A DNA stretch of 64,000 bases from Kitasatospora xanthocidica (GTDB taxonomy: Bacteria; Actinomycetota; Actinomycetes; Streptomycetales; Streptomycetaceae): NCBI RefSeq assembly GCF_014656195.1, contig NZ_BNBY01000003.1, positions 124,001 through 188,000 of the forward strand, in the 5' to 3' direction. The first letter of the stretch is position 1. The number at the start of each line of letters is the position of its first letter. The position numbers and the translations under genes were made by a program. Positions 1,746-29,583 of this stretch are shown here, in pieces. The notes below the pieces were generated by a model. That model saw only the letters and a program-made list of their open reading frames with translations. It was not told where the DNA came from and ran no database searches.

Positions 1746-3080
1746 TCAGGCCAGTCGGCGGAACACCGGCTTCACCGGCCGCCCGCCCACCCAGGGGGTC
1801 GGGTCGCCGGCCTCCAGCGCCTTCCGGTAGACGGCGCAGGCCCCGGCCACCACCTCGACGGTGTGCTCGATGTCGGCGTCGTCGAGCGCGCTGCTCACCA
1901 CGAACGACGGGGCCAGCACCCCGCCCAGGAGGAGTTGGCGCAGGAACAGGGTGCGGTACGGCTGCGACGGCTGCCCCTGCTCGTCGAGGGTGGCGAAGAC
2001 CAGGTTGCTGGCCCGGCCCCGGACGAGGACGTGGTCGCCGACGCCGGCGGCCGCGGCGGCCTCGCGGACACCCGCGGCCAGCCGCTCGCCGAGGGCGTGC
2101 AGCCGGGCGGTGACGCCCTCCTCGGCGTAGGTGTCCTGCACGGCCATCGCGGCGGCCAGCGCGTGGGTCTCCGCGCCGTGCGTGGTGGACAGCAGGAACA
2201 CCCGGTCCCCGGAGTGGCGCAGCCCGCCCCGCTCCATCAGCTCCCGGCGCCCGGCCAGCGCGGCCACGGCGAAGCCGTTGCCCAGCGCCTTGCCGAAGGT
2301 GGACAGGTCGGGGGTGACGCCGTACAGGCCCTGGGCGCCCGCCTCGGACCAGCGGAAGCCGGTGATCATCTCGTCGAAGACCAGCACGCAGCCGTGCCGG
2401 TGGGCCAGTTCGCGCAGGCCGGCGAGGTATCCGGGCGGCGGCTCGGCGTGTCCGGCGGGTTCGAGGATCAGGCAGGCGACCTCGTCCCGGTACCGGGTGA
2501 GCAGTTCCTCGGTGGCGGCCAGGTCCCCGTACGGGAACGCCACGGTGAGCTCGGTGGTCGCGGCCGGGATCCCGGCGGACATCGGCGTGGTGCCGATGAA
2601 CCAGTCGTCGACGGAGAAGAACGGGTGGTCGGCGCAGACGGCCACCCGGGAGCGCCCGGTGACGGCGCGGGCGAGCCGCACCGCGGCGGTGGTGGCGTCG
2701 GAGCCGTTCTTGGCGAACTTCACCATCTCGGCGGTCGGCACGGTGGCCAGGAAGCGTTCCGCGGCCTCGACCTCCACGACGGACGGCCGGACGAAGTTGC
2801 CGCCCCGGTCCAGCTCGCGCCGCACCGCCTCGACCACCCGCGGGTGGGCGTGGCCGAGGCTGACCGACCGCAGGCCGGAGCCGTACTCGACGTAGCGGTT
2901 GCCGTCGAGGTCCCACACGTGGGCGCCCCGGCCGTGGCTGATGACCGGGGCCAGGTCCTCGGGGTACTGGTCGTCACCCTTGGCGTAGGTGTGGGCGCCC
3001 CCGGGGATCAGGGCGTGCAGCCGCTCGTTCGTCGCCCGCGACCGGGGCAGGCCGAACCCCTCGGTGTGTCCGGTGTCCAC
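1746..3080 (-). CDS. Class III PLP aminotransferase, glutamate-1-semialdehyde aminomutase type
   Basis: A 444-residue protein with GTG start, the last gene of the polysaccharide operon. It has the class III aminotransferase layout: cofactor Asp in FDEMITGFR (D236) and the Schiff-base lysine in FGKALGNGF (K264). It most resembles glutamate-1-semialdehyde 2,1-aminomutase relatives. Such paralogues in O-antigen and capsule clusters aminate nucleotide-sugar or small-molecule precursors rather than make heme. Its location 7 bases after the RmlC-type epimerase gene supports a role in building an amino-substituted sugar or side group of the polymer. A housekeeping heme role is the alternative but is unlikely in this setting. 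Confidence 0.85.
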   Translation of the reverse strand: MDTGHTEGFGLPRSRATNERLHALIPGGAHTYAKGDDQYPEDLAPVISHGRGAHVWDLDGNRYVEYGSGLRSVSLGHAHPRVVEAVRRELDRGGNFVRPSVVEVEAAERFLATVPTAEMVKFAKNGSDATTAAVRLARAVTGRSRVAVCADHPFFSVDDWFIGTTPMSAGIPAATTELTVAFPYGDLAATEELLTRYRDEVACLILEPAGHAEPPPGYLAGLRELAHRHGCVLVFDEMITGFRWSEAGAQGLYGVTPDLSTFGKALGNGFAVAALAGRRELMERGGLRHSGDRVFLLSTTHGAETHALAAAMAVQDTYAEEGVTARLHALGERLAAGVREAAAAAGVGDHVLVRGRASNLVFATLDEQGQPSQPYRTLFLRQLLLGGVLAPSFVVSSALDDADIEHTVEVVAGACAVYRKALEAGDPTPWVGGRPVKPVFRRLA

Positions 3081-3087
3081 GCCGGCC

Positions 3088-3639
3088 TCACCCCTTCCTG
3101 TGCCGCAGGACCTCGGCGAGGCTCGGTGCCTCGCTGTCCCGCTTGGACACCGACACGGCCGGCAGCGGCCAGGGGACGGCGAGTTCCGGGTCGTCGAAGG
3201 CGATCGTCACGTCCTCGGCCGGATCGTGCGGCCGGTCGATCCGGTACGAGACGTCGGCGGTGTCGGTCAGCGCCTGGAAGCCGTGCGCGCACCCCGCCGG
3301 GATGTACACGCTCACCTGCGTCTCGCCGGACAGTTCGAAGTGGGCCTGGTTGCGGTAGGTCGGCGAGTCCGGCCGCAGGTCCACGACGACGTCGAAGACC
3401 TTCCCGGACGAGCACCGCACCAGCTTGGCCTCGCCGGCGCCGGAGCGCAGGTGCAGGCCGCGCAGCACGCCCAGGACGGAGCGGGACAGGCTGTGCTGGA
3501 CGAAGGCGTCCGGGTCGAGCCCCACCGAGCGGATCACCTCGGCGTCGAAGGTGCGGCAGAAGAAGCCGCGTTCGTCCGCGTACGGTGTGGGTTCGAACAG
3601 GTACGCACCGGCGATCGCCGGGACTTCGGTCACCTTCAT
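3088..3639 (-). CDS. RmlC-family sugar epimerase (dTDP-4-dehydrorhamnose 3,5-epimerase-like)
   Basis: A 183-residue cupin matching RmlC length. The conserved LRGLH (H63 as the expected catalytic base), KLVRC, PAGCAHGF and the Tyr of SYRIDRP (Y132) are all present. The family epimerises C3 and/or C5 of 4-keto nucleotide sugars. Start: ATG overlapping the stop of the upstream pyruvyl-transferase gene by ATGA; the open frame continues upstream but only antisense-like sequence precedes this ATG. No RmlA, RmlB or RmlD genes lie in the operon. The substrate may therefore be the CDP-linked sugar made by the neighbours, or dTDP-sugar made elsewhere. Confidence 0.85.
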   Translation of the reverse strand: MKVTEVPAIAGAYLFEPTPYADERGFFCRTFDAEVIRSVGLDPDAFVQHSLSRSVLGVLRGLHLRSGAGEAKLVRCSSGKVFDVVVDLRPDSPTYRNQAHFELSGETQVSVYIPAGCAHGFQALTDTADVSYRIDRPHDPAEDVTIAFDDPELAVPWPLPAVSVSKRDSEAPSLAEVLRHRKG

Positions 3640-4892
3640 GGGGCCTCCCGCTGGGCTTGGCTGTGGGCATCGGATCGGGTCCGGGCGTGGTCGGCGCTCG
3701 GGAAGAGGGCCGCGGTCAGGGCGGTGAACTGGTGCTCCAGGCGCCGGGCGGCGGTCAGGTTCCGCTCGGTGAGGGTCCGTCTCAGCTCCATCGATCTCTT
3801 CTCCAGGTCCCGGAACTGTTCGAGCAGGCGGTCGGCGTCGACCTCGCGCGCCGGGTGGCAGTACACGCCGAGGCCCATGTCCGCCATGAGCGCCTCGCTC
3901 TTGGTCGCGTAGCAGAGCGCGAGCACCGGCGTACCGGTCTTCAGCGCGCAGATCAGGTTGTGGTAGCGGACGGCCACCACGGTGTCGGCGGCCGTCATCT
4001 CCGTCATCAGGTCGGCCAGTGAGGCCGGTTCGGCGGCGGTGACCAGCGGGGAGTCCACCGCGTCGAGGATCGCGTCGACCACCGAGGTGTCGCACGCGTC
4101 GCCGGTGAGCAGCCGGACCTGCCTGCCCTCCTCGACCAGCACCCGGACGAACCGGATCGTCCCGTCGAGGTAGCGCCGGTGGATCTCCCCGGCGCGGGCG
4201 CGGTCGTCGTTGCCGCCGTGGAAGTCCATGACGCCGAGGCAGACCGGGCCCGGCGTACCGGACGGCGTGCTCTTCGGCGGCGTCGGCAGGGAGAACGCGA
4301 GGTCCGGGTAGACCTCGTCGCGCGCGGTGTCCACGCCCATCGCCCGCATCGCGTCGCGGGAGGGGACGTCCCGGTACGACCGGTACGCGGCCAGCCGCGC
4401 CGACCAGCGCACCAGGGCCCGGGTCGGCCGGTTCCGGATCCCGGCGGCGCCGACGCTGACCAGCGCGACCCGGGTGCCCAGCAGCCGGCCGCTCGCGCAG
4501 AGCAGGAACAGCGCGTACGGGAAGCCCCACGGCCGCAGCGGCAGGGTGGCCTCCAGGACGCCCATGCCCGGCACGATCACCACGTCGTGCCGGCGCACCC
4601 AGGCGGCGGTGCGCACGGCGTCGACGAGTTTGCCCACGCCCTTCGCCGCGACGGCGCCCGCCCGCGAGGCGGTCCGGTACTCGGCGCGGTTCCAGTGCAG
4701 CCGGGTGGCGGGGATCCGGAACCGGGCCGTCACGGCCTCGGGCCCGCCGCAGAACGCGTCCACGACCGCCTCCGGGTGGTCGGCGCGCAGGTACCCGAGC
4801 ACCGCCTCCAGCGACCCGTCGTTGCCGAGGTTGCCGGAGCCGAGCAGCCCGAACACCCCGACCCGCACCGGCTTCCGAGGGGCGGCGGTCAT
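3636..4892 (-). CDS. Polysaccharide pyruvyl transferase family protein
   Basis: A 418-residue protein starting at the ATG that overlaps the upstream glycosyltransferase stop (ATGA). The N-terminus VGVFGLLGSGNLGNDG is the typical opening of the polysaccharide pyruvyl transferase fold (CsaB/WcaK class). A His-containing active region, VAVRYHNLICALKTGTPVL, occurs near residue 310. Family members ketalise sugar residues with pyruvate from phosphoenolpyruvate, giving the polymer negative charge. The last 40 residues look like a helical, charged tail (LEKRSMELRRTL). Within this operon it predicts a pyruvylated sugar in the repeat unit. Confidence 0.85.
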   Translation of the reverse strand: MTAAPRKPVRVGVFGLLGSGNLGNDGSLEAVLGYLRADHPEAVVDAFCGGPEAVTARFRIPATRLHWNRAEYRTASRAGAVAAKGVGKLVDAVRTAAWVRRHDVVIVPGMGVLEATLPLRPWGFPYALFLLCASGRLLGTRVALVSVGAAGIRNRPTRALVRWSARLAAYRSYRDVPSRDAMRAMGVDTARDEVYPDLAFSLPTPPKSTPSGTPGPVCLGVMDFHGGNDDRARAGEIHRRYLDGTIRFVRVLVEEGRQVRLLTGDACDTSVVDAILDAVDSPLVTAAEPASLADLMTEMTAADTVVAVRYHNLICALKTGTPVLALCYATKSEALMADMGLGVYCHPAREVDADRLLEQFRDLEKRSMELRRTLTERNLTAARRLEHQFTALTAALFPSADHARTRSDAHSQAQREAP

Positions 4893-5836
4893 GACCGCCG
4901 CCCCTCGCGGCCGGCCACCAGGGCGTCGACGGAGACGGTGAGCAGGGCCGGGTCGACCGGGGCGCGGTCCTCGACCCGCTCGCCGGCGCCCGGCCGGGCC
5001 CGGCTGCCCATCCAAGCCGCCAGGTGGCGGTAGCACTCCCGCCGGTCGGCCGAGGAGAGCGGCGCCCGCCGGACCGCCGAGACGAAGCCCCAGACGTACT
5101 CGGCGAGCAGCCGGGCCGTCGGGTGCAGCGGGCCCGCCCGGCGCGGGTCCAGGTTGACGCACCGGGAGCGCTTGGAGGGGTTCGCCCGCTCGGCCCGGGT
5201 GGGGTGGTCGCGGCGGAAGTACAGCAGCTCGGGCACCTGGTGGAAGGGCCCGTACAGGCCGAGCTCGGTGACGAAGGTGCGGTCGGCGTGGTGGTAGCTG
5301 TCCATCGGCTTCACCCGGCGCAGCACGTCGGCCCGGATCACCCCGTAGAAGTCGTCGCCGCCGGGCTCGAACAGCATGCTGCGGAAGCGCTCCGGCGCGT
5401 GCGGCGAGGCGGTGGCGAGCGTGTACTCGTAGGGGACCTTCACCTGGCCGTCGCCGTCGATGACCGCCTGGTCGGCGTGCGCGAGGATCACGTCCGGCCG
5501 CTCGTCCAGCGCCTCCACACAGCGCAGCAGCAGGTCCCGGCCGTACAGGTCGTCGTGCGAGGCCCACTTGAACAGCTCGCCGCGGGACTCGGCGAACACC
5601 AGGTTGTGGTTCGGGGTGGCGCCGATGTTGCGGGGCAGCCGGAGCAGGCGGATCCGCGAGTCCTTCTCGGCGTAGCGCCGGCAGATGTCCGGCGTCCCGT
5701 CGGTGGAGGCGTTGTCGGAGACGATCAGCTCGAAGTCCTCGTAGGTCTGGCCGAGCAGGGCGTCGAACGACTCGGCGAGGTACTCCTCGCCGTTGTAGAC
5801 GGGCAGGCCGATGCTCAGTCTGGGTCGGGCGGTCAT
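4889..5836 (-). CDS. Glycosyltransferase family 2
   Basis: A 315-residue GT-A fold enzyme. The N-terminus LSIGLPVYNGEEYLAESFDAL and the nucleotide-binding segment VSDNASTDGTPDICRRY are canonical GT2 features. KWASHDDLYG, about 95 residues in, carries the DxD-like metal-binding acidic pair. No membrane helix is evident, so it likely adds one sugar to the lipid-linked repeat unit on the cytoplasmic face. ATGA overlaps join it to the flippase gene upstream and the pyruvyl-transferase gene downstream. Donor and acceptor cannot be read from sequence. Confidence 0.88.
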   Translation of the reverse strand: MTARPRLSIGLPVYNGEEYLAESFDALLGQTYEDFELIVSDNASTDGTPDICRRYAEKDSRIRLLRLPRNIGATPNHNLVFAESRGELFKWASHDDLYGRDLLLRCVEALDERPDVILAHADQAVIDGDGQVKVPYEYTLATASPHAPERFRSMLFEPGGDDFYGVIRADVLRRVKPMDSYHHADRTFVTELGLYGPFHQVPELLYFRRDHPTRAERANPSKRSRCVNLDPRRAGPLHPTARLLAEYVWGFVSAVRRAPLSSADRRECYRHLAAWMGSRARPGAGERVEDRAPVDPALLTVSVDALVAGREGRRS

Positions 5837-7170
5837 GCGGTCCTCACTTCGGGGATGTCGTCCTCTGGCGCGGGGGTGGGTCCGGGGGTGGGGGCGCGGT
5901 GGTGCTCGCGCAGGGCGGCCCTCAGCTGGAGCCACCAGACGGCCGAGCCGCAGGCCGTCGCGGCGGCGACGCCCCAGGCGGAGCCGGCCGTGCCGGCCAC
6001 GGCCGCGCCGCCGAGGCCGAGGCCGGCGTAGCAGGCGGAGGCGAACAGCTGGCAGCGCAGGCTGCGCCGGGCCGCGGCGAGCGCCCGCAGCCCGGCCGCC
6101 GCGCCGCTGCCGAGGCCGGCGCCCGCGACGCCGAGCGTGGCGGGCAGGATGAGCCGGGAGGCGTCGTGCCAGACGCCGCCGAGGACGAGTTCGCCGAGCC
6201 GGTCCGGCATCAGCAGCAGCGCCGCGCCCCAGAGCAGCGCGGCGGCGGCCTGCCCGCCGCCCAGCAGGAGGCAGAACCGGCCGAGCGCGTGCGGTGCCCG
6301 CCGCAGCACCCGGGCCGCCTCCGCGACGGTGACCAGCGACAGCCCCATCAGCAGGGCGAGGAACGGGCCGAGCAGGAGTTCGGCGCCGCGGACCGCTCCC
6401 ACCGCCCCGACCCCGACGATCGCGCCGAGCCCGTACGCCCGCAGCTGGCCCGCGCCGCTGAGGCTGACGTTCTCGACCAGGTAGCGGCTGCCGAGGTCGC
6501 GCTGCTCGCGCAGCCAGCCGCGGGCCTGCCCCACCCGGGGCCGCAGGCCCGACTGGACGCAGCCGTAGCCCGCGGCCACCGCGGCGGCGGCTCCCCAGGC
6601 CAGCAGGAAGGCGGCCACGGTGCCCACCCGGGCGGCCACGACCATGGCAGGGACGAGCGCGAGGCCGCAGACCAGGTCGTTGGTGAAGGCCTTCCGCCCG
6701 GCCCCGGCGGCGAAGAAGGCGAACCGCCAGGCGTCCTGGAGCAGCAGCGCCGGCAGGGCGACGCCGAGGCAGGCGAAGGCGGCCCCGACCCGGCCGCCGA
6801 GGCCGAGCCCGACCAGCAGGCAGACCGCGCCGAGGACGGTCCCGACGCCGAGCGCGGCCCCCGCCGACCGGGCCGCCGCCGAGCGCCAGGACGCCTCCGG
6901 CGCGCCGCTGAAGCGCACCACGAGCGGGTCGGTGGCCAGCCCGCGGGCGACGTTGAGCACCACGCCGTAGGTCAGCCAGGCCAGGCTGAACACGCCGAAC
7001 GCGGTGACCCCCAGCGAGCGGGCCACGTAGATGCCCACCGCGAAGTTGGTCATGCTGGACGCCGCCTGGTCGGCCAGTCCCCAGGACAGCCGGCCGAGGA
7101 GTCCCCGTCCGGCGCTCGGGCCCGTCTCCGGGGCCGTCGTCCCCGCCTCCTCGGTGGTCATCGGCGTCAT
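5833..7170 (-). CDS. Wzx-like polysaccharide flippase (MOP superfamily)
   Basis: A 445-residue, strongly hydrophobic protein with about 12 predicted helices after an N-terminal soluble stretch of about 35 residues. The opening GLADQAASSMTNFAVGIYVARSLGVTAFGVFSLAW is characteristic of O-antigen/teichoic-acid flippases of the MOP exporter superfamily. It should move undecaprenyl-linked repeat units across the membrane and pairs with the Wzy-like protein further upstream in the operon. The chosen ATG overlaps the upstream stop (ATGA); an in-frame ATG three codons later is the alternative start. Confidence 0.82.
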   Translation of the reverse strand: MTPMTTEEAGTTAPETGPSAGRGLLGRLSWGLADQAASSMTNFAVGIYVARSLGVTAFGVFSLAWLTYGVVLNVARGLATDPLVVRFSGAPEASWRSAAARSAGAALGVGTVLGAVCLLVGLGLGGRVGAAFACLGVALPALLLQDAWRFAFFAAGAGRKAFTNDLVCGLALVPAMVVAARVGTVAAFLLAWGAAAAVAAGYGCVQSGLRPRVGQARGWLREQRDLGSRYLVENVSLSGAGQLRAYGLGAIVGVGAVGAVRGAELLLGPFLALLMGLSLVTVAEAARVLRRAPHALGRFCLLLGGGQAAAALLWGAALLLMPDRLGELVLGGVWHDASRLILPATLGVAGAGLGSGAAAGLRALAAARRSLRCQLFASACYAGLGLGGAAVAGTAGSAWGVAAATACGSAVWWLQLRAALREHHRAPTPGPTPAPEDDIPEVRTA

Positions 7171-8441
7171 GCCTTGATCAGCCCGGCGCCGTGCAGGGCG
7201 TCGGCCGCGGCGGCGACGGCGTCGAAGGGCAGCCCGGACCGCTCGGCGACGTCCAGCAGGCCGTGCTCGCCGTCGGAGAGGCTGAGCACCCAGAGCATGG
7301 CCAGCTGGGCCTCCTTGGCGTCGCTGCGGCCGCCGAGCGAGTCGTACAGCCCGCGCCGGCCCAGCTGCGGCTCGCCGTACGGGCTGAGGTTGACGTAGCG
7401 CCGGTCGCGGTCGAGGACGGCGAACGCCTCGCGGCAGACGGCGAGGGTGTCCGCCAGCGCCTCCGGGGAGACGAAGTCCGGGTCGTCGGCCGAGGTGTGG
7501 TACTCGGGGTACCCGGCGTACGGGGTCCGGGTGAGCGAGCCGACGCCGAGGTCGAACCCGGGCGAGCAGTACTGCCGCTCGTCGTAGCCGTACGGCGTGA
7601 ACTCCCTGACCTCGTGCGGGCGTCCGGAGGCGCGCAGGACGTGCCGCAGCACCCGGTCGATCTCCGCGTCGCCGCGCCGGCTCTGCTTGTACGTCAGCTG
7701 CCCCCGGTCGCCGGCGCAGGCCAGCACCAGGCCGTGCTTGACCCTTTCCACCCGCTCCGCGTTGCGGGCCAGCCAGGTGATCGCCCCGATGGTGCCGGGC
7801 GCGAAGACGAACCGGTAGGTGTAGTGGGGCGAGCGCCGCGCCAGCTCCCGGGCCAGGAAGACCGCCACCGCGACGCCGGCCATGTTGTCGTTGGCCAGCG
7901 ACGGGTGGCAGACGTGGCAGGAGACGATCACCTCGTCGGTGACCTGCCCGGGGACGACGTGCTCGGCGTAGGTGAGGTGGCCGTCCGCGAGCGTGGAGTC
8001 GATCCGCACCTCGTAGTCGCCGTCCGGCATGGCGTCCAGGGTCTCCTGGGCCAGGCAGAACCCCCATTGCGGCGTGTAGTAGCTGGTGCGGTACGGCACC
8101 CAGGTCGGCTGGTCGGGCAGGGTGTGCAGGTGGGCGCGCAGCTCGGCCAGCGGCATGGTCGCCGCCACCGGCACGCTGTAGCCGAGCACGTGCAGGCTGG
8201 AGGCGGCGAAGTCGACGACCCGGCGGCCGGCGCCGTCGGCGATGTAGGCGTCCCGGATGTTCCACTCCTGCGGCACCGTCCAGTCGAGCACCTTGGTGCC
8301 GGTCGGCACCTCGTGCACCCGCAGCGGGAGGTACTCGCCGACGATGTCCAGGGTGGCGCGCACACCGTCGCCGGTGATGCTGCGGCAGATCGGGTACAGC
8401 CGCGTGACCAGCGCGTGCATCTCCTCGCCGGGCGTGGTCAT
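7167..8441 (-). CDS. DUF4910 hydrolase, M28-aminopeptidase-like with winged-helix tail
   Basis: A 424-residue protein of the DUF4910 type seen in O-antigen and capsule clusters. Metal-site residues typical of an M28-like zinc hydrolase are visible: SCHVCHPSLANDNMAG (His and Asp) and EYHTSADDPDFV (His-Asp). The C-terminal 80 residues (from about RRGLYDSLGG) look like a winged-helix module. The reaction is not established for this family; it co-occurs with cytidylyltransferase, C-methyltransferase and PIG-L genes, as here. It may hydrolyse an amide or ester formed during synthesis of a modified sugar. ATGA overlaps couple it on both sides. Confidence 0.75.
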   Translation of the reverse strand: MTTPGEEMHALVTRLYPICRSITGDGVRATLDIVGEYLPLRVHEVPTGTKVLDWTVPQEWNIRDAYIADGAGRRVVDFAASSLHVLGYSVPVAATMPLAELRAHLHTLPDQPTWVPYRTSYYTPQWGFCLAQETLDAMPDGDYEVRIDSTLADGHLTYAEHVVPGQVTDEVIVSCHVCHPSLANDNMAGVAVAVFLARELARRSPHYTYRFVFAPGTIGAITWLARNAERVERVKHGLVLACAGDRGQLTYKQSRRGDAEIDRVLRHVLRASGRPHEVREFTPYGYDERQYCSPGFDLGVGSLTRTPYAGYPEYHTSADDPDFVSPEALADTLAVCREAFAVLDRDRRYVNLSPYGEPQLGRRGLYDSLGGRSDAKEAQLAMLWVLSLSDGEHGLLDVAERSGLPFDAVAAAADALHGAGLIKA

Positions 8442-9463
8442 CGGCGCCACCGCAGGGTGTCGTCGACGGTGCCGGCCCCGGACGCCGCGCGGAGCACCGC
8501 GAGCCGGGTGAAGCGCTGCTCGAAGCCCTCCCGGGTGAGCCCGAACTCGCGGTAGGCCTCGGCGAGTTCGAGCGCGCCCCGCTTGACCGTCCACTCGCAG
8601 TCGAAGCCGGGGACGGCGGCCCGGAAGCGGGCGAAGTCCACCCGGTAGGAGCGGGGGTCGGCTCCGTTCTCCCCGGTGATCCGCACCTTCGCGCCCTCCA
8701 CCGCCTCGGCGACCTGCCCGGCGATCTCGGCGACGGTGACGTTGTTGGTCTCGCTGCCGATGTTGAACGCCTCGTCGTGCACCGCCTCGCGCGGCGCGGC
8801 CAGCGCGGCGGTGAAGGCCCGGGCGATGTCGGCGGCGTGCACCAGCGGGCGCCAGGGGGTGCCGTCGGAGAGCACCAGCACCTCGCCGGACAGCAGCGCG
8901 TGGCCCACCAGGTTGTTCAGCACGATGTCGGCGCGCAGCCGGGGCGAGTAGCCGAAGGCGGTGGCGTTGCGCATGAACACCGGGCTGAAGTCGCCGTCGG
9001 CCAGGTCGTGCAGGTCGTCCTCCACCCGCACCTTGGACTCCGCGTACGGCGTCACCGGGCGCAGCGGGGCGTCCTCGGCCACCAGCTCGTCGCCGCCGGC
9101 GGCGCCGTAGACCGAGCAGGTGGACGCGTACAGGAAGCGCCGTACGCCGGCGTCCCGGGCGAGCCGGGCCAGCCGTACCGAGGCGTGGTGGTTGATGTCG
9201 TAGGTGAGGTCCGGTGCCAGCGAGCCCAGCGGGTCGTTGGAGAGCGCGGCCAGGTGGATCACGGCGTCCACCCCGGCCACCTGCTCGGCGGTGACGTCGC
9301 GCAGGTCCACCCGGTGCCCGGGCGGGTCGGCGGGCGCCGGGCCGAGGACGCAGTCCGCGAACAGGCCGGAGTCCAGCCCGACGACCTCGTGCCCGGCGGC
9401 CGCGAGGACCGGGGCCATCACGGTGCCCAGGTAGCCCTGGTGTCCGGTCAGCAGTACGCGCAT
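8438..9463 (-). CDS. NAD-dependent nucleotide-sugar epimerase/dehydratase (extended SDR)
   Basis: A 341-residue extended SDR. The Rossmann motif is GHQGYLG at residues 7-13. The catalytic triad is in YASTCSVYG (Ser) and PYAESK (Tyr, Lys), with HLAALSNDP as the NAD-binding loop. Length and motifs suit a 4-epimerase, 4-reductase or dehydratase of nucleotide sugars. It lacks the wording expected of classical CDP-glucose 4,6-dehydratase (GHTGFKGSW). With the cytidylyltransferase and C-methyltransferase genes upstream it probably acts on the CDP-sugar, but which carbon it changes is open. Confidence 0.8.
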   Translation of the reverse strand: MRVLLTGHQGYLGTVMAPVLAAAGHEVVGLDSGLFADCVLGPAPADPPGHRVDLRDVTAEQVAGVDAVIHLAALSNDPLGSLAPDLTYDINHHASVRLARLARDAGVRRFLYASTCSVYGAAGGDELVAEDAPLRPVTPYAESKVRVEDDLHDLADGDFSPVFMRNATAFGYSPRLRADIVLNNLVGHALLSGEVLVLSDGTPWRPLVHAADIARAFTAALAAPREAVHDEAFNIGSETNNVTVAEIAGQVAEAVEGAKVRITGENGADPRSYRVDFARFRAAVPGFDCEWTVKRGALELAEAYREFGLTREGFEQRFTRLAVLRAASGAGTVDDTLRWRR

Positions 9464-9466
9464 GGG

Positions 9467-10114
9467 TCAGCCCTCCAGGTCGAGCGTCAGTTTGGTGGCG
9501 GCGAACGCCTCGGCGTAGCGCGCGTGGCATTCGATGCCGCGGATCCGGGCCAGCCCGAGGAAGGCCTCCCGGTCGTACCAGGGGCGGTGGCGCTGCGAGG
9601 GGTAGTGCTCCTGCAGCAGCCGGACCTTCCGTTCGGCGATCTCCGGGGTGAGCGGCTGGTAGGCCGTCGGGCGGCCGAGGTCGGCGTCCCATTTGACGAT
9701 CTCGTAGCCGAGCACCAGGTGGTCGCGGAAGGCGGTGGTCATCAGCTTCGCCAGGCCGCGGTGGTCCTGGTGGGCGTCCTCGGTGCGCGGGGCGAGGACG
9801 AGGCCGGGCTCGCCGCGTCCGCGCAGTTCCTCGACGGCGGCCTTGGCCTCGTCCCAGTGCGCGGGCAGCCGGCCGTCCGGCAGTTTGAGGACGGTCAGCC
9901 GCAGGTCGGCGCCGGGGCAGAAGGCGGCGAGCGCGGCCCGCTCCTCCTGCTCCCGCTCGCCGCCACCGCCGGAGAGCACCAGCGCGTCGACCCGCAGGCC
10001 CGGCCGCGCCAGGCACATCGTCAGCAGGGTGCCGCCGGCGCCGATGGCGATGTCGTCGCAGTGCGCGCCGACCGCGACGACGCCGGTCAGGGCGCCGGCC
10101 CGGAGGCGGATCAC
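9467..10114 (-). CDS. PIG-L family deacetylase
   Basis: A 215-residue PIG-L/LmbE-fold zinc hydrolase. The metal motif AHCDD (family consensus AHPDD) sits at about 17-21 from a GTG start, with a distal H-Q-D-H motif (EDAHQDHRGL) supplying the other zinc ligand. Family members deacetylate N-acetyl sugars. The start is the GTG overlapping the upstream cytidylyltransferase stop (GTGA). In the operon it would expose an amine on a sugar, which could then be re-acylated or recognised by the DUF4910 enzyme; this order of events is inference. Confidence 0.85.
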   Translation of the reverse strand: MIRLRAGALTGVVAVGAHCDDIAIGAGGTLLTMCLARPGLRVDALVLSGGGGEREQEERAALAAFCPGADLRLTVLKLPDGRLPAHWDEAKAAVEELRGRGEPGLVLAPRTEDAHQDHRGLAKLMTTAFRDHLVLGYEIVKWDADLGRPTAYQPLTPEIAERKVRLLQEHYPSQRHRPWYDREAFLGLARIRGIECHARYAEAFAATKLTLDLEG

Positions 10115-10908
10115 GCGGTCCTCACGCCGGAGCCGTCCTTCTCCCAGACGGCCCACGGGCGCTCGCCCCGGGCGTAGGCCTCGTCGAGCGCCGCGCGTTC
10201 CTTCACGGTGTCGGTCGGCTTCCAGAAGCCGCGGTGCTGGTGCGCCACCAGCCGTCCCTGCTTGGCCAGTCCGGCGCAGCCGTCGGCGACCAGGTCCCCG
10301 TTCTCCGGGATGTGGTCGAAGACCTCCTGGCGGAGCACGAAGTAGCCGCCGTTCTCCCACAGCGGCAGTTCGCTCACCGCGGTGATGCCCCCGACCAGGT
10401 TGTCCTCGCCGAGCTCCACGCAGTGGAACGAGGACTGCGGCGGCACCACCATCATCGACGCGCCGGCGTCCCGCCGGGAGAACCGGTCGATCATCTCCGG
10501 CAGCGGGGCGTCGGTGAGCACGTCGGCGTAGTTGGCGAGGAACATCTCGTCGCCGTCCAGGTGGTGGCGCACCCGGCGCAGCCGCTCGCCGATCGGCGAC
10601 TCGATGCCGGTCTGCGCGAAGGTGATCGTCCAGGAGGAGATGTCGGTGGACAGCAGCTCGGTCTTGCCGCCCCGCAGCACGAAGTCGTTGGACGTCGTCT
10701 CCTCGTAGTTGAGGAAGAAGTTCTTGATGTGGTGGGCCCCGTAGCCGAGGCAGAGGATGAACTCGGTGTGCCCGTGGTAGGCGTAGTAGCGCATCACGTG
10801 CCAGATCAGCGGCCGCGGCCCGACCATCGCCATCGGCTTGGGCACGTCGTCGTTGGCCCCGCTGCGCATCCGCAGCCCGTAACCGCCGCAGAACAGGACG
10901 ACCTTCAC
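10111..10908 (-). CDS. rfbF: Glucose-1-phosphate cytidylyltransferase
   Basis: A 265-residue nucleotidyltransferase matching RfbF length. It begins VVLFCGGYGLRMR followed by PKPMAMVGPRPLIWHVM, the activator and substrate-binding segments of the family. Downstream family blocks FILCLGYGAHHIKNFF and GIESPIGERL are present. It makes CDP-glucose from CTP and glucose-1-phosphate. The GTG start overlaps the upstream methyltransferase stop by GTGA; the much longer open frame upstream is out of register with any recognisable protein. No typical CDP-glucose 4,6-dehydratase gene accompanies it, which is unusual for an rfbF locus. Confidence 0.9.
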   Translation of the reverse strand: MKVVLFCGGYGLRMRSGANDDVPKPMAMVGPRPLIWHVMRYYAYHGHTEFILCLGYGAHHIKNFFLNYEETTSNDFVLRGGKTELLSTDISSWTITFAQTGIESPIGERLRRVRHHLDGDEMFLANYADVLTDAPLPEMIDRFSRRDAGASMMVVPPQSSFHCVELGEDNLVGGITAVSELPLWENGGYFVLRQEVFDHIPENGDLVADGCAGLAKQGRLVAHQHRGFWKPTDTVKERAALDEAYARGERPWAVWEKDGSGVRTA

Positions 10909-12140
10909 GGCTTCACCTCCACGATGCTCAGTTCCGGGATGGGGAAGACCAGCCGGCCGCCCCACTCGTGCACGAAGGAGAGCTGCTCGACCAGTTCGGC
11001 CCGCAGGTTCCACGGCAGGACGAGGACGTAGTCCGGCCGGTCGGTGGCGATCTGCTCGGGCGGCAGGATCGGGATCCGGGTGCCCGGGGTGAACCGGCCG
11101 TGCTTGTAGGGGTTGCGGTCGACCGTGTACGGGAGCAGGTCGGGCCGGATGCCGCAGTGGTTGAGCAGGGTGTTGCCCTTGCCCGGGGCGCCGTAGCCGA
11201 CGACCGTCTCGCCGCGCTCGGCCGCGTCGATGAGGAAGCGCAGCAGGTCCCGGCGCACCTTGGCCACCCGGGCGGAGAACTCGGTGTACCCGGAGAGCTC
11301 CCGCAACCCGGCCGCCTTCTCCCGGTCCAGCACCTCGGCCACCCGCCGGCTCGGCTCGCCGGCCGCCTCGGCCGGCCGGGCCCACAGCCGGATGGAGCCG
11401 CCGTGCGTGGGCAGCAGCTCGACGTCCACGAGCGTGAGCCCGCCGCTCTCCAGCGCCCGGGCCGCGGAGGCGACCGTGTAGTACTGGAAGTGCTCGTGGT
11501 AGATCGTGTCGTACTGGTTCTCCTCGATGAGGGTCAGCAGGTGCTGCACCTCGATGGAGACCCAGCCGTCGTCGGCCACCAGGGCGCGCAGCCCCCGGGT
11601 GAACCCGACCACGTCGGGGATGTGCGCGTACACGTTGTTGGCGACGACCAGGTCCGCCGGGCCGTGCTTGACGCGGACGTCCGCGCCGGTGACCGGGTCC
11701 AGGAAGGCCGTGAGCGTCGGCACGCCCTTCTCCCTGGCCGCGGCGCCGACGTTGACCGACGGTTCGATGCCGAGGCAGCGGATCCCCCGCTCCACGACGT
11801 GCCCGAGCAGGTACCCGTCGTTGCTGGCGACCTCGACCACGAAGGCCTCGGGGCCGAGGTCCAGCCGCTGGACGGCACCGTCGACGAAGGTCCGCGCGTG
11901 GTCCACCCAGGAGGTCGAGTAGGAGGAGAAGTAGGCGTACTGGGTGAAGGTCTCCTCCGGCGTGATCAGCGGGGGGATCTGCGCGAGCCAGCAGTCCGTG
12001 CAGACCCGCAGGTGCAGCGGGTACGCCGGCTCCGGCCGGTCCAGTTGGTCCGCGGCGAGGAAGCTCTCGCACGGCGGCGTCGCCCCCAGGTCGACGACGC
12101 TCCCCAGCGCCGTCGAACCGCAGAGTCGGCATCGTGTCAT
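10905..12140 (-). CDS. Sugar C-methyltransferase, SAM-dependent, zinc-binding N-terminus
   Basis: A 411-residue protein, the typical size of NDP-hexose C-methyltransferases (TylC3 type). There are three regions. An N-terminal zinc-binding domain carries C4-x2-C7 and C47-x2-C50. A SAM-binding fold has motif EVASNDGYLL at about 106-115. A C-terminal domain contains VGYGAPGKGNTLLNHC. The family adds a methyl branch to a 4-keto nucleotide sugar, usually at C3. Its position directly before the cytidylyltransferase gene suggests a branched CDP-linked sugar. It abuts the GT4 gene upstream with no spacer. Confidence 0.88.
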   Translation of the reverse strand: MTRCRLCGSTALGSVVDLGATPPCESFLAADQLDRPEPAYPLHLRVCTDCWLAQIPPLITPEETFTQYAYFSSYSTSWVDHARTFVDGAVQRLDLGPEAFVVEVASNDGYLLGHVVERGIRCLGIEPSVNVGAAAREKGVPTLTAFLDPVTGADVRVKHGPADLVVANNVYAHIPDVVGFTRGLRALVADDGWVSIEVQHLLTLIEENQYDTIYHEHFQYYTVASAARALESGGLTLVDVELLPTHGGSIRLWARPAEAAGEPSRRVAEVLDREKAAGLRELSGYTEFSARVAKVRRDLLRFLIDAAERGETVVGYGAPGKGNTLLNHCGIRPDLLPYTVDRNPYKHGRFTPGTRIPILPPEQIATDRPDYVLVLPWNLRAELVEQLSFVHEWGGRLVFPIPELSIVEVKP

Positions 12141-13415
12141 CTACTGCCCCCATTCCCGCCCGCGCGGGGTTCCCCGGCGCGGGCCAGCGTTTCCGTTCCC
12201 TGTCGGCGGCGCGCCGTCGGCGCCGCCGGACCGCCCCGCGATCACGGTGCGGTACTCCTCCACCAGGCGCTCCAGGCCGACGGCCGGGCTGAAGGCCCGT
12301 TCGTAGCGGCGCCGGGCGGTCCGGCCCATCTCCCGGTTGGCGGCCGGATCGGCCGTGATCCGGCGCAGGCTCTCCGCGAGCGAGGCCTCCTCGCCCGGCC
12401 GGTGCAGCAGCCCCGTCACCCCGTCCTCGACGAGCTCGACGAAGGCGCCGTGCCCGGCGGCGACGGCCGGGACCCCGGCCGCCATCGCCTCCGCGACCAC
12501 CAGGCCGAAGGTCTCCGGGGAGACCGAGGGGGCCACCACGGCGACCGCTCGCGCGACGGCCTCCCGGCACTGGGCCGGGTCGTACAGGCCGACGTAGCGC
12601 ACGTCGTCCCGGCCCGCCGCCCAGGCGGTCACCTCGGCCTCCAGCGGCCCCCCGCCGGCCAGCAGGAGCGGTACGCCCACACCGCCGGCCGCGGCGAGCC
12701 GGTCCCAGGCGGCCATCAGCAGCCGTACGCCCTTGGGCTCGGCGAGCCGGCCGAGGAAGAGCAGGTGCTCGCCGTCGCCGGTACGGCGGCTGTCCGGCTC
12801 GGGCACGAAGTTGTGCTTCACCACCAGCCGTTCGGCCGGCATGCCGGAGCGGACCAGGACGTCGCGCTGCGCCGCGGAGATGCAGAAGAACCGGTCCACG
12901 CCGGTCCACCACCGCCGCCGGTTGACCGACATGCTGACCGCGAGCGGCACCGTCGCCAGCCGGGAGTTGCGGTAGCAGCCGTGCCGGACGGCGGGCAGCC
13001 CGGTCGCCGACCCGACGCACTCGGTGCACGCCCGGCCGTCCCGGTGCAGGGTGCCGGGCGGGCAGACCTGGGTGAAGTTGTGCAGCGTGGCGACGACGGG
13101 CACACCGGCGTCGGCGCAGGCGGCGAGCACCGCCGGGGACAGCAGCGGGAAGACGTTGTGGACGTGCACCACGTCCGGCCGCTCGCCGCGGAGCCGGGCG
13201 GTGAGCTCCGCGCGGACCGGCGGGTTCCACGGCACCAGGAGCGGCACCGCGACCTTGCCGAGCAGGGAGCGGGCGGCGATGTCGTCGCTGCGCCGCTCGA
13301 ACAGGTCGACCCGGTGGCCGGCCGCGCGCAGCAGCCCCACCTCCTCGTCGACGACCCTGTTCTCCCCGCTCGGCTGCGCCGAGGAGTAGCGGTTGTGCAC
13401 CACCAGGACGTGCAC
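12141..13415 (-). CDS. Glycosyltransferase family 4
   Basis: A 424-residue GT-B enzyme. The N-terminal domain opens VLVVHNRYSSAQPSGENRVV, with a second glycine-rich acceptor region. The C-terminal donor domain has LLFLGRLAEPKG and the EX7E region SPETFGLVVAEAMAAGVP. An unusual cysteine-rich insert (TQVCPPGTLHRDGRACTEC) lies at about 115-133. Such Cys motifs occur in a subset of actinobacterial GT4 enzymes and may bind a metal. Retaining sugar transfer to the lipid-linked intermediate is the expected role. It starts two bases after the polymerase gene ends. Confidence 0.87.
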   Translation of the reverse strand: MHVLVVHNRYSSAQPSGENRVVDEEVGLLRAAGHRVDLFERRSDDIAARSLLGKVAVPLLVPWNPPVRAELTARLRGERPDVVHVHNVFPLLSPAVLAACADAGVPVVATLHNFTQVCPPGTLHRDGRACTECVGSATGLPAVRHGCYRNSRLATVPLAVSMSVNRRRWWTGVDRFFCISAAQRDVLVRSGMPAERLVVKHNFVPEPDSRRTGDGEHLLFLGRLAEPKGVRLLMAAWDRLAAAGGVGVPLLLAGGGPLEAEVTAWAAGRDDVRYVGLYDPAQCREAVARAVAVVAPSVSPETFGLVVAEAMAAGVPAVAAGHGAFVELVEDGVTGLLHRPGEEASLAESLRRITADPAANREMGRTARRRYERAFSPAVGLERLVEEYRTVIAGRSGGADGAPPTGNGNAGPRRGTPRGREWGQ

Positions 13416-13417
13416 GG

Positions 13418-14731
13418 TCAGGTCACCTCCTGTGTGCGGTCCCGACGCGGGTTACGTCGGCGCGGGACCGCGAGTGTGGTCGGCGGCGTGGCCGCGGCGG
13501 GTGTGGCGAGCAGCGAGGCGGCCAGGGCCAGGTGCAGCAGGTAGGGCGAGGCGTCGCCGAGCCCGGCCTCGGTGTACGAGGAGATCGCGACGTAGCTGAT
13601 CAGGAAGATCGCGCAGGCCCGCTCCAGCGAGGGCGGGCGCAGCAGGGCGACGCCGCCCAGCGCCAGGAGGATCGCGGCCACCAGGCCGATGCCGACCAGG
13701 CCCTGCTCGTTGTAGACGGCCAGCCAGCTGTTGTCGATCGGCAGTCCGCCGAAGGACTTGTCGCCCAGGCCGATGCCGAAGGCCTCTTCGGGGATGGTCC
13801 GGGGCTGGGTCAGCAGGGCGTCCCAGACCTTGGCCCGGCCGGTGAGGTTGGAGAAGTTCTCCTTGCTCTGGCCGCGCATGAACCAGGTCTGCAGCGCGCC
13901 GGCGAACGCCACCGCGGCGACCGTGGCCGTCACCAGCGCCCAGGTGAAGAAGCGGCGGGCGGCGGTGCTGGTCAGCAGGAGCGAGCCGATCGCCAGCGCC
14001 AGGCCGGCGAGCAGGCCGATCGTGGCCGTCCGGGTGTGGGTCATCGCGAGCAGCACGAAGGTCGGCACGATGACCATGGCCGCGCTCTTCCCGGTGGTCC
14101 GGCGGCCCAGCAGGAGCAGCACGGTGAGCCCGATGATCACCGCCGAGTACTGGCCGATCTGCGGCGGGGTGAGCGGCCACAGCGCGCCGACCAGCCGCCC
14201 GCCGTAGTACTCGGGCATGGCCGTGCCCGGGGAGATGACCAGGCCGGCGGCCACCGACCAGAGCACCGCGTAGTACATCCGGATGTGGGTGCGGACGAGC
14301 CGGAAGCTTCCGTCCCACCAGCGGCTGATCAGCCACAGGGTGGTGATGAAGATGGCCAGCCGGGTGCAGCGGAACAGCGCGCCGAGGCCGACCTCCAGCT
14401 TCAGGCTGGAGATCAGGCTGGGCACCAGCAGCAGGGTGAGCAGGGTGAGGAAGGCGCCGGGCCGGACGCGCAGCCGGGGGTTGAGCAGGAGGGCCAGCGC
14501 GAACGCGGAGACCAGCGCGCCCATGGTGGCCATCTGGATGAGCGAGCGGGGCAGCCGGACGACGGTCTTCGCCCCGGCGGAGCCGAGCGTGTTGAGGCCC
14601 AGCAGCGCCCAGACTATCCAGACGGCCTTCGGCGTGGCGTCGGGGCGTCCTTCGGCTCCGGCCGGCGTGACCGCCGTGCCCGTTCCGTCCGCCGGCGCGC
14701 CGCGAAGCGGGGCCCCGCCCATCTCAACCAC
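13418..14731 (-). CDS. Wzy-like O-antigen polymerase/ligase family membrane protein
   Basis: A 437-residue polytopic protein with about ten hydrophobic helices and a periplasm-side loop at about 260-310 (QTWFMRGQSKENFSN followed by GRAKVWDAL). That loop resembles the Wzy_C segment containing a conserved R-x-x-x-W signature. The low similarity typical of polymerases makes this a topology-and-context call. Together with the flippase and two Wzz-like proteins it completes a Wzx/Wzy-dependent assembly set. The start overlaps the upstream beta-helix gene by 8 bases. An O-antigen ligase function is the alternative. Confidence 0.75.
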   Translation of the reverse strand: MVEMGGAPLRGAPADGTGTAVTPAGAEGRPDATPKAVWIVWALLGLNTLGSAGAKTVVRLPRSLIQMATMGALVSAFALALLLNPRLRVRPGAFLTLLTLLLVPSLISSLKLEVGLGALFRCTRLAIFITTLWLISRWWDGSFRLVRTHIRMYYAVLWSVAAGLVISPGTAMPEYYGGRLVGALWPLTPPQIGQYSAVIIGLTVLLLLGRRTTGKSAAMVIVPTFVLLAMTHTRTATIGLLAGLALAIGSLLLTSTAARRFFTWALVTATVAAVAFAGALQTWFMRGQSKENFSNLTGRAKVWDALLTQPRTIPEEAFGIGLGDKSFGGLPIDNSWLAVYNEQGLVGIGLVAAILLALGGVALLRPPSLERACAIFLISYVAISSYTEAGLGDASPYLLHLALAASLLATPAAATPPTTLAVPRRRNPRRDRTQEVT

Positions 14732-16253
14732 CGGCCTTGGTGGTGGCGAAGGTGCTGCCGGTGTCCTGCCGGTACGGCGTGCCCTGCCACTGCCCGGAGT
14801 CGAGCGGGCGGCCCGGGTCGTCGGCGACGAAGGTCCACGGGCCGCGGTAGACGTTGTCGTGCCAGCGGTTGTCCTGCTTGAGGGTGATCGCCTCGGCGAC
14901 CCGCTTGCCCATGTACGGCGACCAGTCCGGGTAGGTGCCGTAGTTGGAGAGCACCGCCATCCGGCCGCAGTCCACGGTGCACTTGACGACGGAGGTGTCG
15001 AGGGCGAAGCGGTTGTCGTGGATGTCGACCCGCTGGGTCTTCCACCGGCAGTCGGAGTAGAGCGGCGGGGTGTCGATCGCCGGTTTCACGCAGCGGCCGG
15101 GGTCCTTCACCAGCAGGGTGCAGTAGCCGGTCGAGGTGTTGGCCGGGCTGTTGCAGAACCGGTCGGCGTTCTCCCAGAGGGTGATCCCGGACCAGTTGTC
15201 CTCCAGCGTGTTCCGGTAGATCTCGATCCGGTCCGTGCGGGCGGGGACCCGGGGTTCGCCGCCGGCCTCCGACAGGTAGACGGCCGCGTGCGGGAAGTCG
15301 TCGCCGTCGGCGGCGTGCCGGCGGCCCTCGACCCAGTTGTTCCGCCGGACCGTGTTGTTCCGGATGACGGCGTTGTAGCTGGTCTCGTAGATCAGCGCGG
15401 CACCGTCGTTGGCCTCCAGCACGTTGTTCTCGATCAGGAAGTCGTTGTTGTCGTTGTCCGCCCACAGCCCGGTGCCGCGGTTGTCGTGCACCCAGTTGCC
15501 GCGGATGTCGGCGCCGTCGACGGCCCAGAACTTGACGCCGCCGGTGCAGCCGCAGCCGGGCTGGCGCCGCTCCCAGTCGTCGGTGTTGTTGCCCGTGATC
15601 TCGTTGCCCTCGACCAGCAGGCCCTTGATGGAGTCGCCGGTCTTGTACGCGTTCATGCCGTACTGGCCGTTGTCGCGCAGGCAGCTGGCGCGGACCTGCT
15701 GGCGGGCGCCGGCCATCAGCCCGGCGCCGGAGTTGCCCTGGATCGTCGCGTGCTCGATCACCCACCCGTCGGCCATGTCGTGGTTGACCACGCCCTCGTC
15801 GTGCGGCGCGACGAAGCCCTGCACGGTCAGGTAGCGGATGGTGACGTCCGGGGCGGTGCCGCTGAACGCGTAGTTGTTGGTCTTCCGGCCGTCGAGCACC
15901 GCGCCCGGCGCGCCGAGGTAGGTGTCCCCCTCCTTGGTCATGACCTGGGCGTAGCGGTCCGGTTCGAGGGTGTGGGTGCCCGGGGCCAGCCAGAACGTGG
16001 TGTGCGGAGGGCTGTTCCTGGTCTTCGCGGCCAGGTCGTTGACGACCGCCGGGTCGACCGTCACGGCGCCGGGCGGCGCGGCGGCCGGCCCGGCCGGGGG
16101 CTCGGCGCACACCCGGGCCGCGGCCACCGGTGCGGTGGGCGGGGCGGTCGGCTCCGCCGGGGAGTCCGACCCGCTCGTACAGCCGGTCGTCACCAGCAGG
16201 GCGAGCGTCAGCACCGCCGCCGACGCCCACCGGTAGCTCCCGGTGATCCCCAT
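14724..16253 (-). CDS. Right-handed beta-helix lipoprotein
   Basis: A 509-residue protein with a lipoprotein signal peptide (LALLVTTGC, Cys25) followed by an A/P-rich linker. A long run of parallel beta-helix repeats then shows the ladder N-N-x-x-x-N and G-x-G-L (IEGNEITGNNTDDW, GNWVHDNRGTGLWADNDNN). The start is the ATG after AGGTGG; a second in-frame ATG 18 bases upstream is the alternative. Secreted beta-helix proteins in polysaccharide operons act as lyases, C5-epimerases or hydrolases. The AlgD-like gene in the same operon makes a mannuronan-type substrate possible. The catalytic residues could not be assigned. Confidence 0.75.
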   Translation of the reverse strand: MGITGSYRWASAAVLTLALLVTTGCTSGSDSPAEPTAPPTAPVAAARVCAEPPAGPAAAPPGAVTVDPAVVNDLAAKTRNSPPHTTFWLAPGTHTLEPDRYAQVMTKEGDTYLGAPGAVLDGRKTNNYAFSGTAPDVTIRYLTVQGFVAPHDEGVVNHDMADGWVIEHATIQGNSGAGLMAGARQQVRASCLRDNGQYGMNAYKTGDSIKGLLVEGNEITGNNTDDWERRQPGCGCTGGVKFWAVDGADIRGNWVHDNRGTGLWADNDNNDFLIENNVLEANDGAALIYETSYNAVIRNNTVRRNNWVEGRRHAADGDDFPHAAVYLSEAGGEPRVPARTDRIEIYRNTLEDNWSGITLWENADRFCNSPANTSTGYCTLLVKDPGRCVKPAIDTPPLYSDCRWKTQRVDIHDNRFALDTSVVKCTVDCGRMAVLSNYGTYPDWSPYMGKRVAEAITLKQDNRWHDNVYRGPWTFVADDPGRPLDSGQWQGTPYRQDTGSTFATTKAGG

Positions 16254-16285
16254 CCGCCCCACCTGCCTCATCCCTACCCGTCGCA

Positions 16286-20439: not shown

Positions 20440-20500
20440 CGAAGTCCCCTTGTTCTCTCCGCCGTCTTGCTCTCTACGCCGTCGCCCGGGCCCCGCGCCG

Positions 20501-22450: not shown

Positions 22451-22453
22451 GTC

Positions 22454-27924: not shown

Positions 27925-28018
27925 GACTCGTTCCTCCCCTCCGGCAGGCCCTTGTGGCCGGCCCTCCGCGCGCCCATCGGACGACGCCCCCCTCGTCGGT
28001 TCCTTCGCGTCCTTCGCA

Positions 28019-29548: not shown

Positions 29549-29583
29549 GATTCCTCCCCCCGGGAGGCTCGCGCCTCCCGCAC
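29512..29583 (-). CDS. Possible 23-residue leader ORF overlapping the first gene of the operon
   Basis: A GTG at 29581-29583 follows GGGGAGG with a 5-base gap and opens a 23-codon frame (VREARASRGEE...) ending TGA at 29512-29514. It overlaps the start of the phosphoglycosyltransferase gene in another frame. It is created by the middle copy of the leader repeat, in which hairpin, Shine-Dalgarno and GTG recur. Translation could expose or hide the downstream start, but there is no evidence beyond the sequence. It may be no more than a by-product of the repeat. Confidence 0.25.
   Translation of the reverse strand: MREARASRGEESCGANTSNPLVT

Follow-up and report, generated by a model that had tools for sequence, protein, structure and literature searches.

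In a 64,000-nucleotide stretch of Kitasatospora xanthocidica DNA (contig NZ_BNBY01000003.1, positions 124,001 to 188,000; hereafter the window), a block of five overlapping or closely spaced genes (7167–12140) within an exopolysaccharide cluster appears to encode a nucleotide-sugar pathway that lacks its expected dehydratase. Our reading, to which we assign a probability of roughly 70%, is that this block makes a C-methylated amino sugar nucleotide for the exopolysaccharide, with an extended short-chain dehydrogenase/reductase (SDR) standing in place of the dehydratase; the activity is predicted from sequence. The SDR is the likely source of the keto sugar, which it would form by oxidizing C4 without dehydration, as predicted from its resemblance to Cj1427 of Campylobacter jejuni. 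Formation of the key reactive sugar by oxidation would explain the missing dehydratase. The gap is real and now mostly explained.

The block belongs to a run of ten co-directional genes on the minus strand (1746–12140), with intergenic gaps of –4 to +7 nt. Its first gene encodes a sugar C-methyltransferase (CMT) of the TylC3/TcaB9 family (10905–12140), with the Pfam domains Methyltransf_13, Methyltransf_23 and Methyltransf_14. Next come a nucleotidyltransferase (NTase) of the RfbF superfamily (10111–10908), a PIG-L/LmbE-type N-deacetylase (9467–10114), the SDR (8438–9463), which we propose to be an NAD-dependent C4-dehydrogenase of the Cj1427 type, and a DUF4910/DUF2172/HTH_47 protein with a single-Zn M28-like fold (7167–8441; PF16254, 386.7 bits). 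Farther down the operon lie genes for an RmlC-type 3,5-epimerase homologue (3088–3639; PF00908, 184.4 bits) and a class III (glutamate-semialdehyde-type) aminotransferase (1746–3080; NF004856, 714.7 bits, cut-off 486). These coordinates bear out the genes, order and overlap described for the core in a first-pass annotation of the window, as well as the epimerase and aminotransferase that it placed later in the operon.

That annotation had also remarked on the absence of a classical CDP-glucose 4,6-dehydratase, and the absence extends to the whole genome, where the best score against TIGR02622 is 84.8 bits and none reaches the cut-off of 278.45; the SDR itself scores 18.5 bits. No hidden dehydratase was found within the block. 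Elsewhere in the genome, eight PF16363 relatives (of 14 matches) proved to be RmlB, LegB-like, GalE or unassigned proteins, none of them RfbG, with RmlB scoring above its cut-off at C6:248470. A search for the same dehydratase-free block in other genomes, as the annotation had suggested, showed that it recurs. Among 200 Streptomycetaceae genomes, 38 (roughly one fifth) carry the SDR and none of these has RfbG, the sole RfbG carrier being SDR-free. RmlB is present in 181 of the 200 at the cut used and missing from 19. Four of the 38 SDR bearers are RmlB-free (G171, G182, G373 and G375), and in all four the block is complete from Wzy to the aminotransferase. PF16363 matches to 1e-25 in G375, a single-contig genome, comprise three proteins, all GalE equivalogs; in G373, two of the three matches are GalE equivalogs and the third is an unassigned relative (157.9 bits versus the RmlB cut-off of 365.1). 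Since complete blocks occur in genomes without RmlB and RfbG, the block does not depend on either enzyme, and it seems to need no classical dehydratase. Together with the lack of any CDP-type dehydratase in the K. xanthocidica genome, these data weaken the earlier suggestion that an enzyme encoded elsewhere makes the keto sugar. A broader mutual exclusion of SDR and RfbG was considered and dropped, as RfbG occurs in 1 of 23 SDR-bearing Actinomycetota genomes (G116), a result not different from chance.

The SDR carries the motif TCSVYG...YAESK, from which the Asp/Glu/Lys of 4,6-dehydratases is absent; at the corresponding site, three of three RfbG controls have T-D-K or S-D-K (TTDK or TSDK). 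C116 is found in 36/36 and S117 in 35/36 SDR rows (35 proteins of other taxa together with that of the window), and 80/80 Streptomycetaceae SDRs retain the two residues, a count that excludes an 81st Streptomyces row representing a partial second match. In a phmmer search with the window SDR, Cj1427 is the closest solved relative (E = 1.3e-28; next, 2.5e-22), and a profile built from 35 members again ranks it highest (6vo6/6vo8; 2.9e-50, 174.5 bits), followed by MoeE5 at 111 bits. We modeled the SDR from an alignment of window, Streptomyces and IMG/VR sequences (mean pLDDT 94.1), and the first five Foldseek rows for this model are all Cj1427; a model from a Streptomyces-only alignment (pLDDT 53) was not used. 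Cj1427 is reported to oxidize C4 of GDP-manno-heptose, with the tightly bound NADH re-oxidized by alpha-ketoglutarate to yield L-2-hydroxyglutarate (PMC10680097). The first-pass annotation had proposed that the SDR generates the keto sugar. As to the source, this is well supported by Cj1427 kinship and by gene context; as to the mode, the evidence favors C4 oxidation rather than a hidden dehydratase.

Gene context was informative in several lineages. In four of four Deinococcus plasmids examined, the gene order is rfbF-lhgO-SDR-rfbC-oxidoreductase, and in the one plasmid scanned, rfbF (445.6 bits) and lhgO (578.3 bits) both score above their cut-offs. On an 8-kb Actinomycetota contig (C205 of G116; L188:2281-6954), the order is rmlA-rmlC-SDR-rmlD-lhgO, with the four named genes above cut-off. 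Chemistry of the Cj1427 kind would require an L-2-hydroxyglutarate oxidase (LhgO), and its place beside the SDR lends indirect support to assignment of the SDR as a C4-dehydrogenase. On the Actinomycetota contig, the SDR and LhgO occupy the place expected for RmlB, an arrangement that would yield a dTDP-hexose with the C6 hydroxyl kept. LhgO is also present in the K. xanthocidica genome, outside the window. Gemmobacter has a sub-threshold homologue (187.7 versus 299 bits), and a FAD oxidoreductase of Paroceanicella (L133) was rejected as LhgO, being an amine-oxidase-type protein.

Fusions provide further evidence. All eight Leisingera plasmid records encode the SDR and a C-methyltransferase as a single in-frame fusion protein, behind rfbF in the one read, and on an IMG/VR contig (L201:5654-7798) the SDR is joined to a DegT/ArnB-type aminotransferase in a protein of 715 amino acids (aa). 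Both partners consume keto sugars, and hence the fusions support the SDR as the source of the ketone. In one Leisingera locus (L190:8001-10343), the SDR-CMT fusion, 780 aa long, is followed by two more methyltransferases. For this fusion, as for the Deinococcus SDR and LhgO accompanied by RfbF, CDP-glucose is very likely the substrate.

Linkage to the NTase was assessed in 41 loci, of which 25 were selected by SDR and 16 by NTase or DUF4910 (a biased set). An RfbF-superfamily NTase is present in 21 of the 25 SDR-selected loci (15/19 Actinomycetota places and 6/6 plasmids), and two of the four loci without one are short stretches. RfbG is found in 0/41 of the fetched stretches, and the eight other extended-SDR loci of the K. 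xanthocidica genome contain no RfbF-superfamily NTase. Several loci (L136:5001-9964, L168, L169, L170, L192, L173, L180, L186) have NTase-SDR-RmlC operons that also encode a DRL-domain protein (PF21135, scanned in L136 only), which we take to be DXP-reductoisomerase-like; the NTase in these operons is either RfbF or of the PIG-L type. Pairing of a 4-keto sugar with an enzyme of this kind points to a furanose product, ring-contracted and carrying a hydroxymethyl branch. On pSymB of S. meliloti 1021, the RfbF-like gene ahead of the SDR (L195:7227-7990) matches in two pieces, possibly reflecting a small insertion or frameshift.

The NTase had been named glucose-1-phosphate cytidylyltransferase, and this name is not borne out. 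Its score against TIGR02623 is 184.7 bits, short of the cut-off of 300.25, and four further NTases of the PIG-L clade likewise fall below it (182–224 bits); canonical RfbF controls from SDR loci score 360.4–445.6 bits. Among PDB entries, it matches 1tzf (E = 1.2e-42). The protein begins MKVVLFCGG and lacks EKP and RFG, presumably the sugar-site motifs of RfbF. The EKP lysine is present in 18/18 PIG-L-free rows, in 1/18 non-Streptomycetaceae PIG-L rows and in 0/80 Streptomycetaceae. In the NTase tree, a 100/100 branch separates 23 PIG-L-linked rows from the 18 PIG-L-free rows and one PIG-L-bearing exception (L110). As the NTase is no RfbF equivalog, the CDP-glucose premise is unproven. The neighboring PIG-L protein scores 47.4 bits against PF02585 (cut-off 28.2), with the metal motif AHCDD...HQDH intact, and the linkage of the two genes suggests that the substrate of the NTase is N-acetylated.

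For the CMT, the best PDB match is TylC3 (4rv9; E = 4.4e-82), with a full-length alignment and the same three Pfam domains. The motif Y-H-E-H, which we assume to be the functional motif of TylC3/TcaB9 C3-methyltransferases, is present in the Streptomyces consensus and in 27 of 28 non-Streptomycetaceae rows, the exception being an extra copy (L184_1). From these features, the expected activity is C3-methylation of a 4-keto sugar nucleotide. The RmlC-like protein narrowly misses the TIGR01221 cut-off (154.6 versus 155.75 bits). It retains the base His and has His at the catalytic Tyr position (Y134 in DdahB/MlghB), as do the Streptomyces consensus and the proteins of L123, L124, L171, L172 and L180, while most others have Tyr. 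This substitution might fit a substrate with a quaternary C3.

The DUF4910 protein had been called a hydrolase, acting perhaps on an acyl or peptide group of the sugar. Neither the label nor the role is supported. It matches the structure 3k9t (E = 2.3e-143) and keeps the single-Zn residues, but the catalytic Asp/Glu pair of M28 peptidases is replaced by Ser/Pro, the same as in CA_C2195. Moreover, DUF4910 is found in 10 of the 17 loci that hold NTase, PIG-L and SDR, and is absent from the other 7. More distant DUF4910 genes lie in or beside clusters for nonulosonic (pseudaminic/legionaminic-like) acids (L128, L130, L131, L132), indicating that the family is not pathway-specific.

Conservation of the core block is far above chance. 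All five genes (CMT, NTase, PIG-L, SDR and DUF4910) are present in 80/80 fetched Streptomycetaceae loci, which correspond to the 80 top-ranked among at least 577 CMT relatives and come exclusively from Streptomyces, Kitasatospora or Streptacidiphilus. The RmlC-like protein and the aminotransferase are present in 74 of these loci, with the gene lists of the other six ending at the flippase; several of the 80 loci are cut by contig ends. HepII is found in 75 and RHB in 78. A module of seven genes (SDR, DUF4910, RmlC, CMT, NTase, PIG-L and aminotransferase) also occurs outside the Streptomycetaceae, on plasmids of Shinella, Agrobacterium, Neorhizobium, Ochrobactrum, S. fredii and Qingshengfaniella. 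In Gordonia and Tsukamurella, a different methyltransferase takes the place of DUF4910.

A pathway can be proposed on this basis. The NTase would activate a sugar-1-phosphate, probably with CTP. This sugar may be GlcNAc-1-P rather than Glc-1-P, with PIG-L removing the N-acetyl group later, given that the NTase clade accompanies PIG-L and has an altered sugar pocket. The SDR would oxidize the C4 hydroxyl using tightly bound NAD+, with retention of the C6 hydroxyl, and its NADH would be re-oxidized by alpha-ketoglutarate, forming L-2-hydroxyglutarate that the LhgO encoded in the genome could recycle. CMT would methylate C3, adjacent to the 4-ketone. With C3 then quaternary, the RmlC-like protein would invert C5, and the class III aminotransferase would aminate C4. 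DUF4910 may contribute a late tailoring step, omitted in some lineages, and the glycosyltransferases, pyruvyltransferase, flippase and polymerase would assemble the polymer. The predicted product is a 3-C-methyl amino sugar with the C6 hydroxyl kept. A narrower version is that the block defines a second, dehydratase-free CDP-sugar branch, in which an N-acetylhexosamine-1-phosphate NTase clade, PIG-L, an alpha-ketoglutarate-driven C4-dehydrogenase and a C3-methyltransferase lead to an undescribed 3-C-methyl, 6-hydroxy amino sugar, in about one fifth of sampled Streptomycetaceae (38/200) and in other phyla. We offer this version tentatively, at somewhat worse than even odds.

Other explanations were weighed. 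RmlB encoded elsewhere could make dTDP-4-keto-6-deoxyglucose for the CMT, the RmlC-like protein and the aminotransferase, leaving the SDR as a final C4 reductase or as an unrelated enzyme. The wide distribution of RmlB, in K. xanthocidica as in most Streptomycetaceae, is in line with this scheme, and the closest solved relatives of the CMT, such as TylC3, are indeed antibiotic deoxysugar methyltransferases. However, the whole block is retained in the four SDR-bearing genomes without RmlB, including G375 with its three GalE equivalogs; the block carries its own NTase; and the association of SDR relatives with RfbF and LhgO indicates net oxidation. We therefore regard a contribution from RmlB as unlikely. 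That the SDR is itself a dehydratase, albeit a non-canonical one, seems a little less probable still. It could resemble TunA, an NDP-hexosamine 5,6-dehydratase that is among its close structural matches (3vps; Foldseek E = 4.4e-22), or it could use Cys116, which is invariant and lies at the dehydratase Asp position, in place of Asp. Yet the sequence profile favors Cj1427 over TunA (174.5 versus 83.9 bits), and dehydration, being redox-neutral, would give no reason for an lhgO gene to share the operon. Similarly improbable is a GalE-type 4-epimerase that generates no free ketone, with the methylated sugar arising by another route. The SDR does have some similarity to GalE (TIGR01179, 89.2 bits, below the cut-off of 262.3), and the structural scores are tied; but its higher sequence score for Cj1427, its fusions to ketone-consuming enzymes, its linkage to RfbF and its position beside rmlC and rmlD in an rml-type operon all argue against this possibility.

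Several observations weigh against C4 oxidation by the SDR in place of a dehydratase. Identity between the SDR and Cj1427 is only ∼29%, and structure alone does not set the SDR apart from UDP-glucose 4-epimerases, since VIA-align gives tied Z values against Cj1427 (34.7) and Rv3634c (34.9). Only two lineages show the SDR linked to LhgO, and the Streptomycetaceae are not among them; moreover, G116, the source of the rml-type operon, has contigs elsewhere that carry RfbG and a partial RmlB. G171 and G182 carry GMD (just under cut-off in G182), and G182 also encodes a LegB-like dehydratase; RmlB, RfbG, GMD and LegB-like classes are all absent only in G373 and G375, and PseB-type dehydratases were not searched. 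Genomes with and without the SDR do not differ in how often they have RmlB (Fisher P = 0.76), and thus the RmlB-free genomes show dispensability of RmlB rather than its replacement. Finally, the order of the PIG-L, methylation and amination steps is one that we infer.

The remaining genes around the block, all on the minus strand, are those of an exopolysaccharide cluster. Between DUF4910 and the RmlC-type gene lie genes for a flippase-like membrane protein (5833–7161; no Pfam match, named from position and composition), a GT2 glycosyltransferase (4889–5836; PF00535) and a polysaccharide pyruvyl transferase (3636–4892; PF04230). A GT4 glycosyltransferase gene, identified from Pfam and synteny, is directly upstream of CMT (12141–13415), next to one for a Wzy-like polymerase/ligase that is sub-threshold (13418–14731; PF04932, 20.1 bits versus a cut-off of 31.7). 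The rest of the cluster (14724–29869) encodes a beta-helix protein, a heparinase II/III-like protein, a bidomain oxidoreductase, an AsnB-like amidotransferase, Wzz, a UDP-glucose/GDP-mannose dehydrogenase and a sugar transferase. A SpoIIE phosphatase/GAF/sensor/HATPase protein, a possible regulator, adjoins it (30193–32970).

If the proposal is correct, a simple rule follows: an RfbF-type NTase with a Cj1427-like SDR would indicate a 4-keto sugar with the C6 hydroxyl, and RfbF with RfbG a 6-deoxy sugar. Many clusters annotated as glucose-1-phosphate cytidylyltransferase plus SDR would need re-reading, and the alpha-ketoglutarate-recycled dehydrogenase would extend from the heptose pathway to hexoses. 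PIG-L-linked NTases and DUF4910, both large families, would gain a concrete pathway in a very common genus, one that points to an undescribed branched sugar in a Streptomyces surface polymer. Searches of the open-licence literature (virenose, Streptomyces exopolysaccharide clusters, DUF4910/PIG-L, CDP-glucose C4-dehydrogenase and LhgO-polysaccharide) found no description of such a dehydratase-free branch. For CDP-4-keto-glucose, the pathway found, in the accessible portion of its description, makes a 6-deoxy sugar. Das et al. (2014) linked DUF4910 to genes for epimerases/dehydratases, NTases, glycosyltransferases and S-adenosylmethionine (SAM)-dependent sugar methylases in many phyla; in the accessible sections of that paper, neither Cj1427 nor the absence of a dehydratase is discussed, and the PIG-L/NTase clade is likewise not taken up (PMC4000134).

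Three known systems invite comparison. The CMT shares with TylC3 and TcaB9 its three domains, its motif and a full-length alignment. Those methyltransferases use dTDP-4-keto-6-deoxy (2,6-dideoxy) sugars, whereas no 6-deoxy precursor is expected for the enzyme of the block. The RfbF-RfbG branch resembles the block in having an NTase, a keto sugar and an RmlC-type epimerase, and in Peteryoungia (L135) also a related C-methyltransferase, but it differs in its dehydratase, its 6-deoxy product, its canonical RfbF and its lack of PIG-L. The Peteryoungia locus (L135:952-9703), with two divergent NTase-RfbG-RmlC-C-methyltransferase sets and a DegT aminotransferase, is a dehydratase-containing counterpart of the block. 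Another example of this branch is the CDP-fucofuranose pathway of C. jejuni HS:41 (PMC12369002). The closest parallel for the SDR is the Cj1427 (MlghA) route to 6-hydroxy heptoses in C. jejuni, whose dehydrogenase falls into one subfamily with the SDR in both profile and Foldseek comparisons. In that route, a 4-keto sugar that retains the C6 hydroxyl is reported to be passed to RmlC-type epimerases. That route works on a GDP-heptose, however, whereas here the SDR is accompanied by an RfbF-superfamily NTase, CMT, PIG-L and a class III aminotransferase.

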